From: Clostridia bacterium
GTDB lineage: Bacteria > Bacillota > Clostridia > UBA1381
Assembly (NCBI GenBank): GCA_017443895.1
Contig: JAFSXU010000019.1
Span: 1 to 39,479 of the forward strand
Direction: 5' to 3'
Length of the DNA stretch: 39,479 bases
Part shown: one piece after another, positions 170 to 11,645 of the stretch
How the letters are laid out: each line of letters opens with the position of its first letter
Position numbering within the stretch: position 1 is the stretch's first letter
The notes under the pieces: generated by a model
What the model was told of the DNA's origin: nothing
Seen by the model: only the letters and a program-made list of their open reading frames with translations
Databases searched by the model: none
Program-made: the position numbers and the translations under genes

Positions 170-907
170 TTACAACTCCTCTTTTAAACTATTAAGCAAT
201 TTTATATCTTTGTCCGTTAAGCTTGCATTTTTAAGTAAATCAGGGCGCTTTTTTAATGTGTTTTTTAATGACTGCTCCCTTTTCCATTCATCAATCTTTG
301 CATGGTTTCCCGAAACTAAAATTTCAGGGATTTCCCTGCCGTGCCATACACGGGGTTTTGTATATTGGGGATATTCCAAAAGTCCCGTAAAATGTGATTC
401 GTTTTCATATGAAGCGGTATCTGACAACACCCCAGGCACCATTCTTGAAACCGCATCAATAACAGCCATTGCAGGTATTTCACCGCCCGTCAGCACAAAA
501 TCGCCAACAGATATTTCACAGTCTGCTATCTCGTCTATAACCCTTTGGTCTATTCCCTCATAGTGTCCGCAAAGTATAATTATATGCTCATAATTATTTA
601 CCAGTTCCTTTGCAATATCCTGGTTAAATACTCTCCCCTGCGGTGACATATAAATAGTATACGGCTTATAATCCAGGTTCTTTACAACCGACATATACGC
701 ATCATAAATCGGCTGAGGCGTCATTAACATTCCACCACCGCCGCTGTATGGTGTATCATCAACCTTTTTATGCTTATCCAAAGTAAAATCACGGATATTT
801 ATAAAATTTAACTCCAATATCCCGTTTTCCCTTGCACGGCCTATAATGCTATCCCCCAAAACTGCCTCAAACATATCAGGAAACAGCGTTAAAACATCAA
901 ACCTCAT
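170..907 (-). CDS. trmD: tRNA (guanine-N1-)-methyltransferase TrmD
   Basis: TrmD methylates N1 of G37 next to the anticodon using S-adenosylmethionine, which prevents +1 frameshifting; it is a cytosolic trefoil-knot (SPOUT) enzyme. The 245-residue product begins MRFDVLTLFPDMFEA and carries the knot motifs YSGGGGMLM, ILCGHYEGIDQRV and DFVLTGGEIPAM, with the conserved SHFTGLLEYPQYTKP segment further on. Length matches the family (about 240-250). The ATG overlaps the end of rimM by 11 nt, so the two are translationally coupled as the last genes of the ylxM-ffh-rpsP-khpA-rimM-trmD operon. No rplS follows. Identification is secure. Confidence 0.97.
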   Translation of the reverse strand: MRFDVLTLFPDMFEAVLGDSIIGRARENGILELNFINIRDFTLDKHKKVDDTPYSGGGGMLMTPQPIYDAYMSVVKNLDYKPYTIYMSPQGRVFNQDIAKELVNNYEHIIILCGHYEGIDQRVIDEIADCEISVGDFVLTGGEIPAMAVIDAVSRMVPGVLSDTASYENESHFTGLLEYPQYTKPRVWHGREIPEILVSGNHAKIDEWKREQSLKNTLKKRPDLLKNASLTDKDIKLLNSLKEEL

Positions 908-1409
908 CGTCCAAGCCTTCCATCATAAACACAAGCACACGCTTATTTTCAATATCAATTTCTTTTACAACATCATCAATTACAGGAATAAGCAAATTTT
1001 TCTTTCCATCTCTTTTAACATCGTAAATATCGGAACTGCCGGTATTGAACACATCACAAATTGTGCCGATAAGCTCATTTGTTTCAATATTGTATACCGA
1101 AAGCCCTATCAAATCGGCAATAAAATGCACACCCTCGGGTAAGTTAAACATATCTCTTGGAGATAACAGCACTGTATTTTTATACATCTGGGCTTTATCA
1201 ATATCCTGTATCTGTTCAAACTTTAATATAACATTGTTTTTTTGGTATTTGATACCCGTTATATCAAGGCGCAGATCGCCCTCTTTTGTCCTTGCATACA
1301 CATATTCTATGTCCTCAAAAGTTTCAGGGTAGTCCGTCCACGGTACTACCTTTACCTCGCCACGAAGTCCGTGAGTATTTACAATTTTTCCTACTTCCAA
1401 CAAGTCCAT
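897..1409 (-). CDS. rimM: Ribosome maturation factor RimM
   Basis: RimM binds ribosomal protein S19 and assists 30S head assembly and 16S rRNA processing. The 170-residue protein starts MDLLEVGKIVNTHGLRGEVKV, the typical N-terminal RimM barrel motif, and has the C-terminal PRC-barrel segment ending in IPVIDDVVKEIDIENKRVLV. The ATG is preceded by AGGAG. It sits between khpA and trmD, the standard Firmicutes order, and overlaps trmD by 11 nt. Nothing unusual is seen. Confidence 0.96.
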   Translation of the reverse strand: MDLLEVGKIVNTHGLRGEVKVVPWTDYPETFEDIEYVYARTKEGDLRLDITGIKYQKNNVILKFEQIQDIDKAQMYKNTVLLSPRDMFNLPEGVHFIADLIGLSVYNIETNELIGTICDVFNTGSSDIYDVKRDGKKNLLIPVIDDVVKEIDIENKRVLVFMMEGLDDEV

Positions 1410-1468: not shown

Positions 1469-1699
1469 TTAGATAATATCCACCGAAACTTTTTTATTTT
1501 CATTGTTTGCGGCAGCTTTTACCACAGTTCTGATTGCTTTTGCAATTCGTCCCTGCTTACCTATAACCTTACCCATATCACTCTGAGCTACTCGAAGCTC
1601 TAAAGTAACTGAGCTATCCGCATTGTCAACTTCTGTTACACTAACCTCTTGAGGGTTATCAACGAGTGATTTGGCTATTATTTCTAAAACAGTTTTCAT
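1469..1699 (-). CDS. khpA: KH-domain RNA-binding protein KhpA (YlqC)
   Basis: A 76-residue single KH-domain protein. The RNA-binding GxxG loop is visible as VIGKQGRIAKAIRTVVKAA, about residues 45-63. In other Firmicutes KhpA pairs with KhpB/Jag and influences cell elongation and small-RNA-linked regulation. It lies 19 nt after rpsP and before rimM, its conserved position. Length is standard for the family (75-80). Confidence 0.94.
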   Translation of the reverse strand: MKTVLEIIAKSLVDNPQEVSVTEVDNADSSVTLELRVAQSDMGKVIGKQGRIAKAIRTVVKAAANNENKKVSVDII

Positions 1700-1718: not shown

Positions 1719-1958
1719 TTACAGAATATTTGACTTTTTAAGCAGTGCCTTTACAGTATCTGTAGGCTGAGCACCGTTAGCGATCCACTTCTTTGCAGCC
1801 TCTGCATCAATGTTTACTGTTGCAGGGTCAGTAAGTGGGTTATATGTTCCGATTTCTTCAATAAATCTACCGTTTCTTGGGTATCTTGAATCAGCAACAA
1901 CAACTCTATAGAAAGGAGCTTTCTTTGCACCCATTCTTCTTAATCTGATCTTTACCAT
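1719..1958 (-). CDS. rpsP: 30S ribosomal protein S16
   Basis: A 79-residue product with the universal S16 start [20 protein letters not shown] and the motif [19 protein letters not shown]. It is a structural protein of the small subunit that binds 16S rRNA early in assembly. The ATG has a GGGAGGTG ribosome binding site. It lies 60 nt downstream of ffh in the same operon. Confidence 0.98.
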
Positions 1959-2018: not shown

Positions 2019-3365
2019 TTATCTTCCGAATTTTCTCATTCGTTTGAGCATTTTAGCCTGCTTTGGACCGCTAAATTGCTTCATCATTTTTTGCATCTGC
2101 TCAAACTGCTTTAAAAGCTGGTTTACATCCTGAACTCTCGTTCCGCTTCCCTTTGCAATTCTGACCTTACGACTTGCGCCGATAATCTTAGGGTTTACCC
2201 TTTCCTTCATCGTCATTGACTGGATAATCGCCTCGGTATGCTTTAGCTTTTTCTCGTTCTCTTCACTATCGACATTTTCAAGCATCTTTGCATCAACGCC
2301 CGGAACCATACCAAGTATTGAAGATAACGAGCCTAATTTCCTTATCTGCTTGAACTGCTGTAGGAAATCATCAAGATTAAATTCCTGCTTTCTTATCTTC
2401 TTTTCAAGCTCAATAGCATCCTTCTGATCAATCGCCTCCTGCGCCTTGTCAATCAAGGTTAGCACATCGCCCATACCCAAAATTCGCGACGCCATACGGT
2501 CGGGGTAAAACGGCTCAAGGTCTGTAAGCTTCTCACCTACCGATGAATACTTTATCGGCTTTCCCGTTACCTGCTTTACAGATAACGCCGCACCGCCTCT
2601 TGTGTCACCGTCAAGCTTTGATAATATTACGCCTGTTACATCAAGCTGTTCGTTAAAAGTCTTTGCAACATTTACCGCATCCTGACCTGTCATTGCGTCA
2701 ACTACCAGTAAAATCTCTGTAGGATTTAGAGCTGATTTTATATCTTGAAGCTCCTTCATTAAGGTGTCGTCTATATGCAATCTACCTGCCGTATCCAAAA
2801 TAACAGGATCGTTGCCGTGCTTTATAGCATGGGAGAGGGCTTGCTTTGCAATCTCAACAGGACTAACCTCTGTCCCCAAACTAAACACAGGAGTTTTTAT
2901 CTGCTCACCCAAAACCTCCAACTGCTTTATTGCGGCAGGTCTGTATATATCACACGCAACCAATAACGGTCTCTTGTTCTGTGTTTTTGTTAAATTAAGG
3001 GCAAGTTTGCCCGATGCGGTTGTCTTACCTGCACCCTGCAATCCGCACATCATTATTACCGTCGGCGGAGTTTTTGAATACCTTAACGGTTCAACCTCGC
3101 CGCCAATCATTTGGGTAAGCTCGTCATTTACCACTTTTACAAGCTGTTGTGCAGGTGTTAATGACTCTAAAATCTCAACACCGACCGCCTTTTCCGACAC
3201 AACCTTAATGAAATCCTTTACAACCTTAAAGTTTACATCGGCTTCCAAAAGTGCAAGCTTTATCTCACGCATGGCGTCTTTTATGTCTTTTTCTGTAAGC
3301 TTTCCTTTGCCACGGAGCTTTTTAAAAACGCCCTGTAGCTTTTCGCCCAAGCTTTCAAATGCCAT
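2019..3365 (-). CDS. ffh: Signal recognition particle protein Ffh (SRP54)
   Basis: Ffh is the GTPase of the bacterial SRP; with 4.5S/scRNA it binds signal sequences on ribosomes and docks with FtsY at the membrane. The 448-residue product has the N domain (1-~90), the G domain with the P-loop GLQGAGKTT, DTAGR and SKLDGDTRGG motifs, and a methionine-rich M domain ending FEQMQKMMKQFSGPKQ...KRMRKFGR. Length matches the family (440-455). It starts 26 nt after ylxM, the usual pairing. Confidence 0.98.
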   Translation of the reverse strand: MAFESLGEKLQGVFKKLRGKGKLTEKDIKDAMREIKLALLEADVNFKVVKDFIKVVSEKAVGVEILESLTPAQQLVKVVNDELTQMIGGEVEPLRYSKTPPTVIMMCGLQGAGKTTASGKLALNLTKTQNKRPLLVACDIYRPAAIKQLEVLGEQIKTPVFSLGTEVSPVEIAKQALSHAIKHGNDPVILDTAGRLHIDDTLMKELQDIKSALNPTEILLVVDAMTGQDAVNVAKTFNEQLDVTGVILSKLDGDTRGGAALSVKQVTGKPIKYSSVGEKLTDLEPFYPDRMASRILGMGDVLTLIDKAQEAIDQKDAIELEKKIRKQEFNLDDFLQQFKQIRKLGSLSSILGMVPGVDAKMLENVDSEENEKKLKHTEAIIQSMTMKERVNPKIIGASRKVRIAKGSGTRVQDVNQLLKQFEQMQKMMKQFSGPKQAKMLKRMRKFGR

Positions 3366-3391
3366 GTGTATCTCACCCCTTTTATAATCCT

Positions 3392-3739
3392 CTATAAGTC
3401 TTTTGAAAGACTTTTGGATATTTCCTTAATCTCATTTAACTTGTCTTTATCGCAATCTGAAATACTCAGACTGTCAATAACGGAATTTAGTTTGTCAATA
3501 TTCTTTGAAATATTTCTAAACCTTTTTACCAGTCCCAGCTTTTCTTCAAACTCATATAACTGCTTTTCTCCACGCTTTATCGAGTCCCTGACTCCCTGAC
3601 GGCTTATCCCAAGCTCATCGGCTATTTCTGACAATGATAAATCATCATTATAGTATAAATCCAGTGCGTCAAGCTGTTTAAGAGTCAAAAGCTGACCGTA
3701 AAAATCCATCAAAATGCTTACGCTTAAATTCTTATCCAT
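3392..3739 (-). CDS. ylxM: YlxM family HTH protein (UPF0122), SRP-linked
   Basis: YlxM is a small sigma-70 region-4-like helix-turn-helix protein encoded just before ffh across Firmicutes; in Streptococcus it binds SRP components. The 115-residue product has the HTH stretch LSEIADELGISRQGVRDSIK near residues 37-56 and a helical C-terminus. The ATG at 3739 is chosen over an in-frame GTG at 3748 because AGGTGA lies five bases before the ATG, and because the predicted transcript starts near 3771. That ribosome binding site is the 3' arm of a perfect hairpin (see 3746-3775). First gene of the operon running to trmD. Confidence 0.93.
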   Translation of the reverse strand: MDKNLSVSILMDFYGQLLTLKQLDALDLYYNDDLSLSEIADELGISRQGVRDSIKRGEKQLYEFEEKLGLVKRFRNISKNIDKLNSVIDSLSISDCDKDKLNEIKEISKSLSKDL

Positions 3740-3745
3740 AAAAAT

Positions 3746-3775
3746 CACCTGTAAAGGTTTTTTACTTTACAGGTG
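3746..3775 (-). promoter_or_regulatory. 5'-end hairpin that sequesters the ylxM ribosome binding site
   Basis: Perfect 11-bp inverted repeat (arms 3746-3756 and 3765-3775, 8-nt loop). In the mRNA sense the second arm contains AGGTG, the Shine-Dalgarno of ylxM. The promoter at 3778-3806 would start transcription at about 3771, so the hairpin would form at the very 5' end of the message. It could lower ylxM translation, stabilise the mRNA, or, with the following ATTTTT, act as a weak attenuator. The structure is plain in the sequence; the function is inferred. Confidence 0.6.
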
Positions 3776-3777
3776 TT

Positions 3778-3806
3778 ATTCTACACTATAGTATTCCATT
3801 TGTCAA
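3778..3806 (-). promoter_or_regulatory. Sigma-A promoter of the ylxM-ffh-trmD operon
   Basis: On the minus strand: -35 TTGACA (3801-3806), 17-bp spacer, -10 TAGAAT (3778-3783). It lies just past the Toprim gene stop at 3825, with no terminator between, so readthrough from upstream is also possible. Confidence 0.75.
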
Positions 3807-3824
3807 CATTTATTTGATTTTTTA

Positions 3825-4439
3825 TCAACAAAATTTATCAGAATTTTTGTCTATGTTTTGTACAAGTTCACAAAGCTCATCAAAGGTAAGGAGTCTGTTT
3901 ATTACATCCAGCAACATATTTGAGGATATTTTATACGGCAGTCCCAGCTCTTTTGTAAGTAAAACCCTCATTTTTACGCTGTCTTTTGTTCCCGATAAGC
4001 CCAAATTAAACATATCCGACTTTGTTATTGTACGGTTATTTTTGACTCTTGTATTTTCACCGTCAATTGTCGCGCCCGATGCTCTTAAAGCCTCGATTAT
4101 AACATCGTCTGATACTCCCTCAACGCCCAAAAGTCCTTCTTTTCCGCCTATTCTTTTGCGTTTTTCCTTGCCCTCGATATTTGGGATATACGCATGCTTT
4201 ACAAGCTTTTCGGGAAGCAATTGCTTTACAAAATTCCGTATCTTAAAGCCTGCGCTGTCAGAGTCGGTTAAAATTACAATTCCCGTTCTTTTTCCAAGCT
4301 CCTGTATGGATTTTTGCATATTCTCATTTGTAAAAACGGAAAATCCGTTGGTTACAAAAATAACTCCGTCAACAAACTGCGACAGCTTGATTTTATCGTA
4401 TAAGCCCTCAACTATAATTGTTTCTTTTATCTTGTACAT
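3825..4439 (-). CDS. Toprim domain protein with DUF4093, RNase M5-like
   Basis: A 204-residue protein. The N-terminal half is a Toprim fold: IIVEGLYDK gives the catalytic Glu and ILTDSDSAG the DxD metal ligands (residues about 8-65). The C-terminal half resembles the DUF4093 region of RNase M5 (RnmV), which removes the 5' precursor of 5S rRNA in Bacillus. It may be the RNase M5 of this organism or a paralogue of unknown substrate, so no symbol is given. The ATG at 4439 is preferred because the family starts at this YKIKETIIVEG segment; an in-frame TTG at 4454 is possible. No clear Shine-Dalgarno is present. Confidence 0.85.
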   Translation of the reverse strand: MYKIKETIIVEGLYDKIKLSQFVDGVIFVTNGFSVFTNENMQKSIQELGKRTGIVILTDSDSAGFKIRNFVKQLLPEKLVKHAYIPNIEGKEKRKRIGGKEGLLGVEGVSDDVIIEALRASGATIDGENTRVKNNRTITKSDMFNLGLSGTKDSVKMRVLLTKELGLPYKISSNMLLDVINRLLTFDELCELVQNIDKNSDKFC

Positions 4440-4454
4440 AATTTTTAAATCCAA

Positions 4455-4478
4455 AAGGCTCGGATAATATCCAAGCCT
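4455..4478 (-). terminator. Probable terminator of the aconitase gene
   Basis: Eleven-bp hairpin with one G-U pair, followed on the minus strand by TTGGATTT. It lies directly after the aconitase stop (4488) and 16 nt before the Toprim gene start. The U tract is poor, so it may only partly terminate. Confidence 0.5.
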
Positions 4479-4487
4479 TTATATAAC

Positions 4488-6422
4488 TTAACTATTCTGC
4501 TCTTTTGTGTAGTTTAGGAGTCCGCCTGCATAAAGCATATTTTTCTGTCTGTCTGAAAAATCGCCCACAAGCTCAAATTCCACGCTCTTAGTCTTATTCT
4601 TTGCAATGATTTTAGTTCCGTTTTTAATCTGATCCTTGATATTGTCAATTACGATTTCATCACCTTCGGAAATCATATCATAATCAGCCTCATTTTTAAA
4701 TACAAGCGGAACAATACCTGCGTTTATAAGGTTTGCCATATGTATTCTTGCAAATGACTTCGTTATAACCGCCTTAACGCCAAGATACAAAGGCGCCAAT
4801 GCCGCATGCTCACGGGACGAGCCCTGACCGTAGTTTGAACCTCCGATTATAACACTCTTTCCCATTTGAAGCGCTCTGTCATGGAACTTCTCATCACATA
4901 CCGCAAAGCAATACTCCGAAATCTTTGGAATATTTGACCTGAGCGGTAAAATCTTAGCGCCTGCAGGCATTATATGGTCGGTTGTTATATTATCGCCAAC
5001 CTTTAAGCTGACTCCTGCCTCAATCTTATCAGGCATAGGAGTAGATACAGGGAACGGCTTAATGTTTGGTCCTCTTAAAATTTCAACGCTGTCCATATCC
5101 TTTTCATCAACAGGCAGAGCAATCATATTATCGTTTATTTTAAACTTTTCGGGCAGTTTAAACTCAGGCATATCGCCCAAAGTTCTCGGGTCCGTTAAAA
5201 CGCCCCTTATTGCCGATACTGCGGCAAGCTCGGGAGATACAAGATAAATTTGTCCGTCCTTAGTTCCCGATCTTCCCTCAAAGTTACGGTTAAATGTTCT
5301 TAATGATATACCTGCCGAGTTTGGCGACTGTCCCATACCTATACACGGCCCGCAGGCGCTCTCTAAAATTCTTGCTCCTGCGTCAATCATAATTTCAAGA
5401 AGCCCAAGCTCCGCCATCATTGTAAGCACCTGCTTTGAACCCGGTGCAATGGCAAGCGAAACATCGGGGTGTACAGTCTTCCCTTTTAGGATATGCGCAA
5501 CCTTCATCATATCAAGCAAGGATGAGTTGGTGCATGAACCGATACAAACCTGGTCAATCTTCATAGGCCCGATTTGGTCAACACTCTTTACATTATCGGG
5601 TGAGTGCGGACAAGCAGCAAGCGGAACAAGCTCGGATAAGTTAATCCGAACAACCTCATCATATTCTGCGTCGTCATCTGCACATAACGGTGTCCAAACC
5701 TCTTCTCTTCCCTGCGCTTTTAAAAACTCAAGTGTTACCTCGTCTGACGGGAATATTGATGTTGTTGCGCCAAGCTCTGCGCCCATATTGGTAATTGTAG
5801 CACGCTCGGGGACAGATAATGTCTTTACACCCTCGCCCGTGTATTCAATAACCTTGCCTACACCGCCCTTTACAGACAGCCTTTTTAATACCTCTAAAAT
5901 GACATCTTTTGCTCCAACCCACGGCGATAACTTGCCCGTAAGCTCTACCTTGACAACCTTGGGACAGGTAATATAGTATGTACCGCCACCCATTGCAACT
6001 GCGACATCCATACCGCCCGCGCCAATGGCAATCATACCTATACCTCCGCCTGTAGGCGTATGGCTGTCAGAGCCTATCAAGGTTTTACCGGGAACGCCGA
6101 AACGCTCCAGATGTACCTGATGGCAAATGCCGTTACCGGGTCTTGAAAAATAAATACCGTGTTTTTTTGCAATTGAACCGATAAATCTATGGTCATCAGC
6201 ATTTTCAAATCCGTTTTGCAAAGTGTTATGGTCAATATATGCAACCGATCTCTCGGTTTTAACTCTCGGAACACCCATAGCCTCAAATTCAAGATACGCC
6301 ATTGTACCTGTATCGTCCTGAGTCAAGGTCTGGTCAATCTTTATACCGATTTCCGTACCCTTTATCATTTCACCCTCAACAAGATGAGCGGATAAAATCT
6401 TCTCCGTTAAAGTAGCTCCCAT
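4488..6422 (-). CDS. Aconitate hydratase
   Basis: Interconverts citrate and isocitrate using a [4Fe-4S] cluster, here probably for the oxidative branch toward 2-oxoglutarate and glutamate. The 644-residue protein has cluster ligands C297 (CIGSCTNSS) and C357/C360 (ACGPCIGMGQ), the N-terminal substrate motif SDSHTPTGGG, and the C-terminal swivel domain with GGSNYGQGSSREHAA near 527-541. The length (~640) is that of the compact clostridial aconitase, shorter than the ~890-residue AcnA. The ATG is preceded by GAGGAG. It has its own promoter and terminator and is probably monocistronic. Confidence 0.95.
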   Translation of the reverse strand: MGATLTEKILSAHLVEGEMIKGTEIGIKIDQTLTQDDTGTMAYLEFEAMGVPRVKTERSVAYIDHNTLQNGFENADDHRFIGSIAKKHGIYFSRPGNGICHQVHLERFGVPGKTLIGSDSHTPTGGGIGMIAIGAGGMDVAVAMGGGTYYITCPKVVKVELTGKLSPWVGAKDVILEVLKRLSVKGGVGKVIEYTGEGVKTLSVPERATITNMGAELGATTSIFPSDEVTLEFLKAQGREEVWTPLCADDDAEYDEVVRINLSELVPLAACPHSPDNVKSVDQIGPMKIDQVCIGSCTNSSLLDMMKVAHILKGKTVHPDVSLAIAPGSKQVLTMMAELGLLEIMIDAGARILESACGPCIGMGQSPNSAGISLRTFNRNFEGRSGTKDGQIYLVSPELAAVSAIRGVLTDPRTLGDMPEFKLPEKFKINDNMIALPVDEKDMDSVEILRGPNIKPFPVSTPMPDKIEAGVSLKVGDNITTDHIMPAGAKILPLRSNIPKISEYCFAVCDEKFHDRALQMGKSVIIGGSNYGQGSSREHAALAPLYLGVKAVITKSFARIHMANLINAGIVPLVFKNEADYDMISEGDEIVIDNIKDQIKNGTKIIAKNKTKSVEFELVGDFSDRQKNMLYAGGLLNYTKEQNS

Positions 6423-11595: not shown

Positions 11596-11604
11596 ACCAT
11601 AAAA

Positions 11605-11645
11605 TATGCACCTGTAAAAGTGTTTGACTTTTACAGGTGCATATC
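11605..11645. terminator. Terminator after the stalk-domain protein gene
   Basis: Perfect stem of about 15 bp (ATGCACCTGTAAAAG paired with CTTTTACAGGTGCAT) with a 7-nt loop, 10 nt after the stop. No strong T run follows on the plus strand; on the minus strand ATTTT follows, so it may also serve the convergent gene at 11666-12109. Its arms share CACCTGTAAA with the ylxM leader hairpin. Confidence 0.7.

Follow-up and report, generated by a model that had tools for sequence, protein, structure and literature searches.

What is the role of the perfect inverted repeat that lies between the predicted promoter of ylxM and its start codon? The window, i.e., the whole stretch of 39,479 nucleotides that was analysed, carries ylxM in front of ffh, and the preliminary description of this locus had read the repeat as an RNA hairpin at the 5' end of the mRNA. 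This hairpin would hide the Shine-Dalgarno sequence (SD) and block initiation at ylxM, with feedback by YlxM through the stem as a further possibility. The features on which the argument rests are the following.

3825–4454, minus strand: upstream gene, ribonuclease M5-like (Pfam Toprim and DUF4093), which stops 18 bp short of the −35 hexamer
3801–3806, minus strand: predicted −35 hexamer TTGACA (11/12 match jointly with the −10 hexamer, 17-bp spacer)
3778–3783, minus strand: predicted −10 hexamer TAGAAT; the YlxM box starts 6 bp past it
3746–3775, minus strand: extended perfect palindrome CACCTGTAAAG-N8-CTTTACAGGTG, an 11-bp inverted repeat and the hairpin of the preliminary description
3750–3771, minus strand: YlxM box, the proposed operator core, consisting of TGTAAAG (3771–3765), N8 (3764–3757) and CTTTACA (3756–3750)
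3746–3750, minus strand: SD AGGTG of ylxM, at the right edge of the palindrome
3392–3739, minus strand: ylxM (UPF0122), encoding an HTH protein with a sigma-70 region-4-like fold, the proposed repressor; ATG at 3739
2019–3365, minus strand: ffh, SRP GTPase (TIGR00959, 633.7 bits)
1719–1958, minus strand: rpsP, ribosomal protein S16 (TIGR00002)
1469–1699, minus strand: KH-domain protein gene (NF001748)
897–1409, minus strand: rimM (TIGR02273)
170–907, minus strand: trmD (TIGR00088)

The genes behind ylxM follow in the order ffh, rpsP, the KH-protein gene, rimM and trmD, and the KH-protein gene (1469–1699) occupies the ylqC/khpA position. The upstream gene at 3825–4454 scored 74.9 bits against TIGR00334, which is under the cut-off of 110.65. 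The exact 22-bp core of the box is present as a single copy in the 2.72-Mb genome, and the same is true for its relaxed form with an 8-bp spacer. A genome search allowing three mismatches gave 408 matches against 227 for the control and was set aside. Two other inverted repeats were seen in the window. One of 16 bp (1427–1461) separates the KH gene from rimM and is possibly a terminator or processing site internal to the operon. The other, of 18–19 bp (11603–11645), lies between convergent ORFs and has CACCTGTAAA/TTTACAGGTG in common with the ylxM palindrome. Its half-site geometry differs from that of the palindrome, no other such pairs were found in the genome, and it is probably a bidirectional terminator.

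The elements described earlier are indeed all present on the minus strand: the perfect 11-bp hairpin, the promoter, the SD and the start codon. The consensus promoter would place the transcript start seven nt past the −10 hexamer, at 3771 and within the 5' arm, as had been stated for this predicted start. A transcript that begins at 3771 lacks CACC (3775–3772), with which the SD would have to pair, and the two halves of the earlier proposal are therefore mutually exclusive. Folding of the ylxM strand from 3771 gave a 7-bp stem of −5.3 kcal/mol (z −0.67 vs. shuffles) with GGUG unpaired, while a start at 3775 would give an 11-bp stem of −15.8 kcal/mol (z −4.83). A fold of the 122-nt region had a z of −3.0, obtained with the plus strand, i.e., the strand opposite to that of ylxM. 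Rfam gave nothing above the gathering score for window positions 3000–4500, and two matches below it.

YlxM was present in 56 of 61 relatives, in 145 of 147 genomes from the class and in 114 of 119 from the phylum. Altogether 334 ylxM loci were read, and after removal of L016 and L138, which have less than 60 bp upstream, and of 19 duplicates as judged by the last 90 bp, 313 distinct Bacillota upstream regions were left. L089 was excluded as a paralogue and has no box at this second YlxM-like gene (genome G060); L430, L431, L435 and L439 are outside the analysed set. The pattern TGTNAAG-N7/8-CTTNACA occurs exactly in 227 of these regions; the number rises to 300 when one mismatch out of 12 is allowed and to 311 when two are. 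Since the loci are related by descent, these counts are not independent. Five control patterns (four other palindromes and the pattern reversed) gave 0 exact occurrences, 0–2 with at most one and 1–35 with at most two mismatches. The two exceptions are L208, where a box with 1 mismatch lies 487 bp upstream, and L296 with three mismatches. Among the named carriers are Ruminococcus bromii 5AMG (L134) and Caproiciproducens galactitolivorans YR-4 (L185), whose spacers measure 7 bp. The arm complementarity, for which the preliminary description had proposed a comparison in close relatives, was not lost at the same-genus loci L004–L006. Judged from these upstream regions, the conserved element at the ylxM promoter is a palindromic DNA site, found in nearly all Firmicutes examined.

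The two halves of the site are not equally constant everywhere. In some clades the left half is much less conserved than the right, which is odd for a symmetric dimer. Loci of the order-level family f2 (e.g., L020, L027, and L063) have a left half that varies at two positions (TGTnnAG), and a constant right half CTTTACA.

The position of the box relative to the promoter was evaluated for promoters called by consensus, and all start sites are predictions. For 267 boxes the left half starts between −1 and +16 nt relative to the end of the called −10 hexamer, most often at 5–8 nt, while the distance from box to start codon ranges from 8 to 330 nt with a median of 23. With so narrow a distance to the −10 hexamer and so wide a one to the start codon, the box belongs with the promoter and not with the ribosome binding site. 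In 54 boxes the called −35 hexamer is the right half itself. Boxes with the right half CTTGACA have a TATAAT-like hexamer (at least 5/6) at exactly 17 bp in 42 of 61 cases, and in 0–10% at the other spacers between 8 and 29; for the right halves CTTTACA and CTTAACA a match of at least 5/6 to TATAAT at 17 bp was found once in 109. The exact spacing of 17 bp argues that the assignment of the right half as a −35 element is more than a scoring effect. A box at the −35 position is not transcribed from that promoter, and thus the conserved object is DNA, at least there. At five loci it is the left half that coincides with the called −10 hexamer, three of these being weak hexamers.

Two boxes are present at 29 loci, and in 25 of them the upstream box ends in the called −35 hexamer. 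When 262 promoters that had not been selected for a second box were examined, 18 showed a left half that starts 16 bp ahead of the −35 hexamer, compared with 0–4 at other offsets. No further box was detected downstream of the ylxM start in the 62 of 80 named loci that were scanned. The core promoter of the gene for the proposed regulator thus carries a conserved dyad, as is expected of an autorepressor with an operator at its own promoter.

The same survey bears on the proposal of a 5'-terminal RNA hairpin that hides the ylxM SD and is perhaps bound by YlxM. The perfect 11-bp arms, the 3' one of which holds the SD, speak for it, as does the reported binding of SRP RNA by YlxM (the accessible text of PMC8546722), and the left arm as a whole would be transcribed in 166 of 256 loci, where it lies past the predicted +1. 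Against this, the SD-pairing bases of the window lie upstream of +1, at least four left-arm bases do so in 20 of the 256 loci, the SD overlaps the paired arm in just 12 of the 198 loci with a recognisable SD (within the 267 boxes after a −10 hexamer), and the right half serves as −35 in the 54 boxes mentioned above.

Pairing between the arms could be assessed at position 4, which was left open in the search pattern. The left/right bases were A/T 188, C/G 30, A/G 25, A/A 16, T/T 11, T/G 11, C/T 9, G/T 9, C/A 6, T/A 5, and G/G 1. Watson-Crick pairing at this position reached 71.7% compared with 55.2% in column shuffles, and the first flanking pair showed the same tendency (0.55 vs. 0.31 shuffled; likewise 0.50 vs. 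0.28 for the −35 class). An RNA hairpin would give such an excess, which counts in its favour; a symmetric protein site explains it as well. Of 311 boxes, 68 carry bases at position 4 that cannot pair, G-U included, which speaks against a conserved stem at the transcript end. SD sequestration as the main function was therefore dropped on the combined grounds of transcript start, SD position, the −35-class boxes, and position-4 pairing, and we regard the RNA hairpin as very improbable. A secondary RNA role of the dyad in some species is conceivable, and, given the reported binding to SRP RNA, YlxM may bind RNA as well (PMC8546722, as far as its text was accessible). Of the feedback that had been suggested, the element itself is real and strongly conserved, and regulation by YlxM is the best reading of it; the route would be promoter DNA, and not an RNA stem.

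A dyad behind a neighbouring gene might also act as an intrinsic terminator against read-through from upstream, and a pattern scan does class the window copy as terminator-like for either strand. Only 22 of the 267 boxes, however, have a T-run after the stem, the loop measures 7 or 8 nt, the arms are conserved in sequence, and the site is placed past a strong called −10 hexamer. The terminator was rejected because of the rarity of the T-run, despite the fit of the window copy to the simple pattern, and we hardly credit it as an explanation for the conserved dyad.

The occurrence of the box elsewhere in the genomes was then considered together with the identity of the protein that binds it. For the family of the window (f1), 21 of 24 exact genomic sites are located at ylxM. 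In 18 genomes the relaxed pattern with an 8-bp spacer gave 29 sites compared with 10 for the reversed control pattern; the site is single in nine of these genomes, each time at ylxM, while four have none and five have at least two. One of these genomes, G316, has two relaxed sites, one at ylxM and one in the ffh-rpsP gap. The box in the gap (L427, 2262–2283) is found besides two at ylxM, and it suggests separate control of rpsP.

Six genomes from four families have ffh and lack ylxM, and in the flanks fetched around their ffh and ftsY genes there was no site with at most one mismatch. Six more genomes (G006, G023, G025, G036, G056, and G119) were uninformative, as they had no ylxM match and their ffh was missing, partial or below the cut-off. 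A search of 18 SRP RNA loci that tolerated up to one mismatch picked up nothing but the box of ylxM in L421 and L422, and one site in L409. This last site (L409 1066–1087, genome G232) has one mismatch, precedes the SRP RNA gene by ∼220 bp, and could be due to chance or a rare extra target. In G017 (contig C2) and G028 (contig C57), which belong to one genus, the SRP RNA gene is located ∼1.2 kb from ylxM.

Among 22 other exact sites that were read, 17 fall within open frames of at least 160 codons and five outside (two in G016 C96 and one each in G039 C40, G042 C41, and G045 C24). Ten further relaxed sites (G012, G046, and G172) are all within open frames. This reading did not extend to G015 C58 and four other relaxed sites of G046, or to exact sites in G044, G046, G048, and G059 and one each in G052 and G056. 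Two exact boxes, L094 631 (G041) and L100 2714 (G050), stand right before plausible starts of other genes while also being within open frames, and may be chance occurrences or rare extra targets. The gene after the former presumably corresponds to der/engA, which its first residues resemble.

The YlxM of the window matches PF04297 (2.3e-26, 92.4 bits, cut-off 22.7) and NCBIfam NF045758 (96.1, cut-off 80), and it also exceeds the cut-off of 24.1 for Sigma70_r4 PF04545 (3e-08, 33.5 bits). The next gene is ffh, and an ffh-like match was found in the flanks of all 168 ylxM loci scanned. The structural model has a pLDDT of 91.4, and its best Foldseek matches are the two solved YlxM structures 1xsv and 1s7o, the second of which has carried the title "putative DNA binding protein" since its release in 2004. 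The next matches are sigma region-4/−35-binding domains (TMt about 0.7–0.8, with weak E-values of 0.03–0.4), one of them bound to −35 DNA. Alignment with RpoD of the same genome, which is weak on its own, sets R47, Q48, and R51 of YlxM opposite R, E, and R of TRERIRQ in region 4.2. We take these RpoD residues to be the counterparts of R584, E585, and R588 of E. coli sigma70, which read the −35 element.

Changes in the box could be compared with changes in recognition-helix residues of YlxM, and they covary in part, with L069, L075, and L208 outside the residue table and truncated proteins (among them L302) included for residue 47. With K47 the outermost dyad base is changed in 5 of 7 loci, compared with 20 of the 303 that have R47 (Fisher 4e-5, a post hoc value without correction). 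The changed loci are L290, L303, L320, L407, and L408 from four families, and the unchanged ones L288 and L302. With Q56 the left G7 is lost in 7 of 7 cases, otherwise in 1 of 192, and the right half is intact. With R51 the right position 4 is T in 140 of 141 boxes located after or on a −10 hexamer (139/142 over best boxes), while H, Y or F at residue 51 go along with a mixed position (T, G or A). All these correlations were found by looking over several residues and positions, and those of Q56 and R51, which follow few clades, are only suggestive of contacts with the corresponding box bases.

It is conceivable that the dyad belongs to a different repressor that controls the SRP operon. YlxM is a candidate binder, such palindromes are common among DNA-binding proteins, and the residue correlations have their exceptions. 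We nevertheless consider a different repressor unlikely, as the box is often the sole genomic site and then stands at ylxM, is absent near ffh and ftsY in the six genomes lacking ylxM, tends to change along with YlxM residue 47, and is built from a half-site that resembles or equals the −35 element read by the fold family of YlxM.

Taken together, we think it likely that the palindrome is the DNA operator of YlxM, a sigma-region-4-like protein that as a dimer represses its own operon ylxM-ffh-rpsP-rimM-trmD; binding, dimer formation and repression are what we infer from the conserved site and the fold. The YlxM dimer would use its HTH to read two inverted −35-like heptamers (CTTNACA, of which CTTGACA is one form) separated by 7 or 8 bp. 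Sitting on the core promoter, where it would cover +1, the −35 hexamer or both, it would keep RNA polymerase off, and such occlusion at −35, −10 or +1 would amount to autorepression of the operon. Binding with the opposite outcome can also be imagined, i.e., that YlxM activates or merely fine-tunes the promoter, since the direction of the effect is deduced. The box lies over or next to +1, −35 or −10, where a bound protein is expected to occlude the polymerase, and this makes activation or fine-tuning decidedly unlikely.

In Streptococcus mutans, work on the SRP has described YlxM as an accessory protein that attaches to both Ffh and SRP RNA (PMC8546722, citing Williams 2014, to the extent that this source was available). 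Given this reported binding, the input to repression may be the status of the SRP. The YlxM left over when the SRP is saturated would be the repressing form, in analogy with the autogenous control of ribosomal proteins. A wider reading is that YlxM is a domesticated sigma region 4: free of Ffh and SRP RNA, it would occupy a site built of −35 elements, sometimes the promoter's own −35 in direct competition with sigma, and shut the Ffh/S16/RimM/TrmD operon, in a phylum-wide loop coupling protein targeting to ribosome production. This wider loop is possible, though we lean towards doubting it.

For Bacillus subtilis, a 5-kb operon transcript and one of 2.5 kb have been reported from a promoter P1 in front of ylxM (PMC10100781, accessible part). 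PylxM of the same organism was picked as a strong sigma-A promoter after exclusion of promoters with regulators listed in DBTBS (PMC7042180, accessible part). This promoter, chosen as one without a listed regulator, may be autoregulated. In the literature searched, which largely leaves out subscription papers and was in part available as excerpts, we found no description of a ylxM operator or a DNA target of YlxM. The conserved site would give YlxM a concrete DNA target and would open the regulation of SRP synthesis in Firmicutes to experiment. It further illustrates that a −35 element and a repressor half-site can share identical bases.

Several known systems share features with this proposal. 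The S. mutans YlxM belongs to the same family and is likewise encoded beside ffh, but it is described as an SRP accessory, and the part of PMC8546722 that was available mentions no DNA site. Sigma region 4 on a −35 element (PDB 2h27) has the same HTH fold, and the half-site CTTGACA contains the −35 consensus and is the called −35 in 54 boxes; unlike sigma, YlxM has no other sigma domains, and its proposed site consists of two half-sites in inverted orientation.

KorA acts as a dimer on a palindromic operator and represses its own synthesis. It is a small HTH protein that has been solved with operator DNA (PDB 5clv and 5cm3, both Foldseek matches to the YlxM model), and these structures are of the KorA of plasmid RK2. 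KorA is a plasmid-encoded global regulator with many targets, whereas the YlxM box is located on the chromosome, often as the only copy.

In the autogenous control of ribosomal proteins an RNA-binding component in excess limits its own operon, and the target is usually mRNA. YlxM would likewise be a component that binds an RNA partner, but the conserved target at ylxM is promoter DNA. An autorepressor with a palindromic operator is of a known kind; what is new here is a sigma-like half-site that is able to be the −35 element, its phylum-wide conservation at one operon, and the SRP context.
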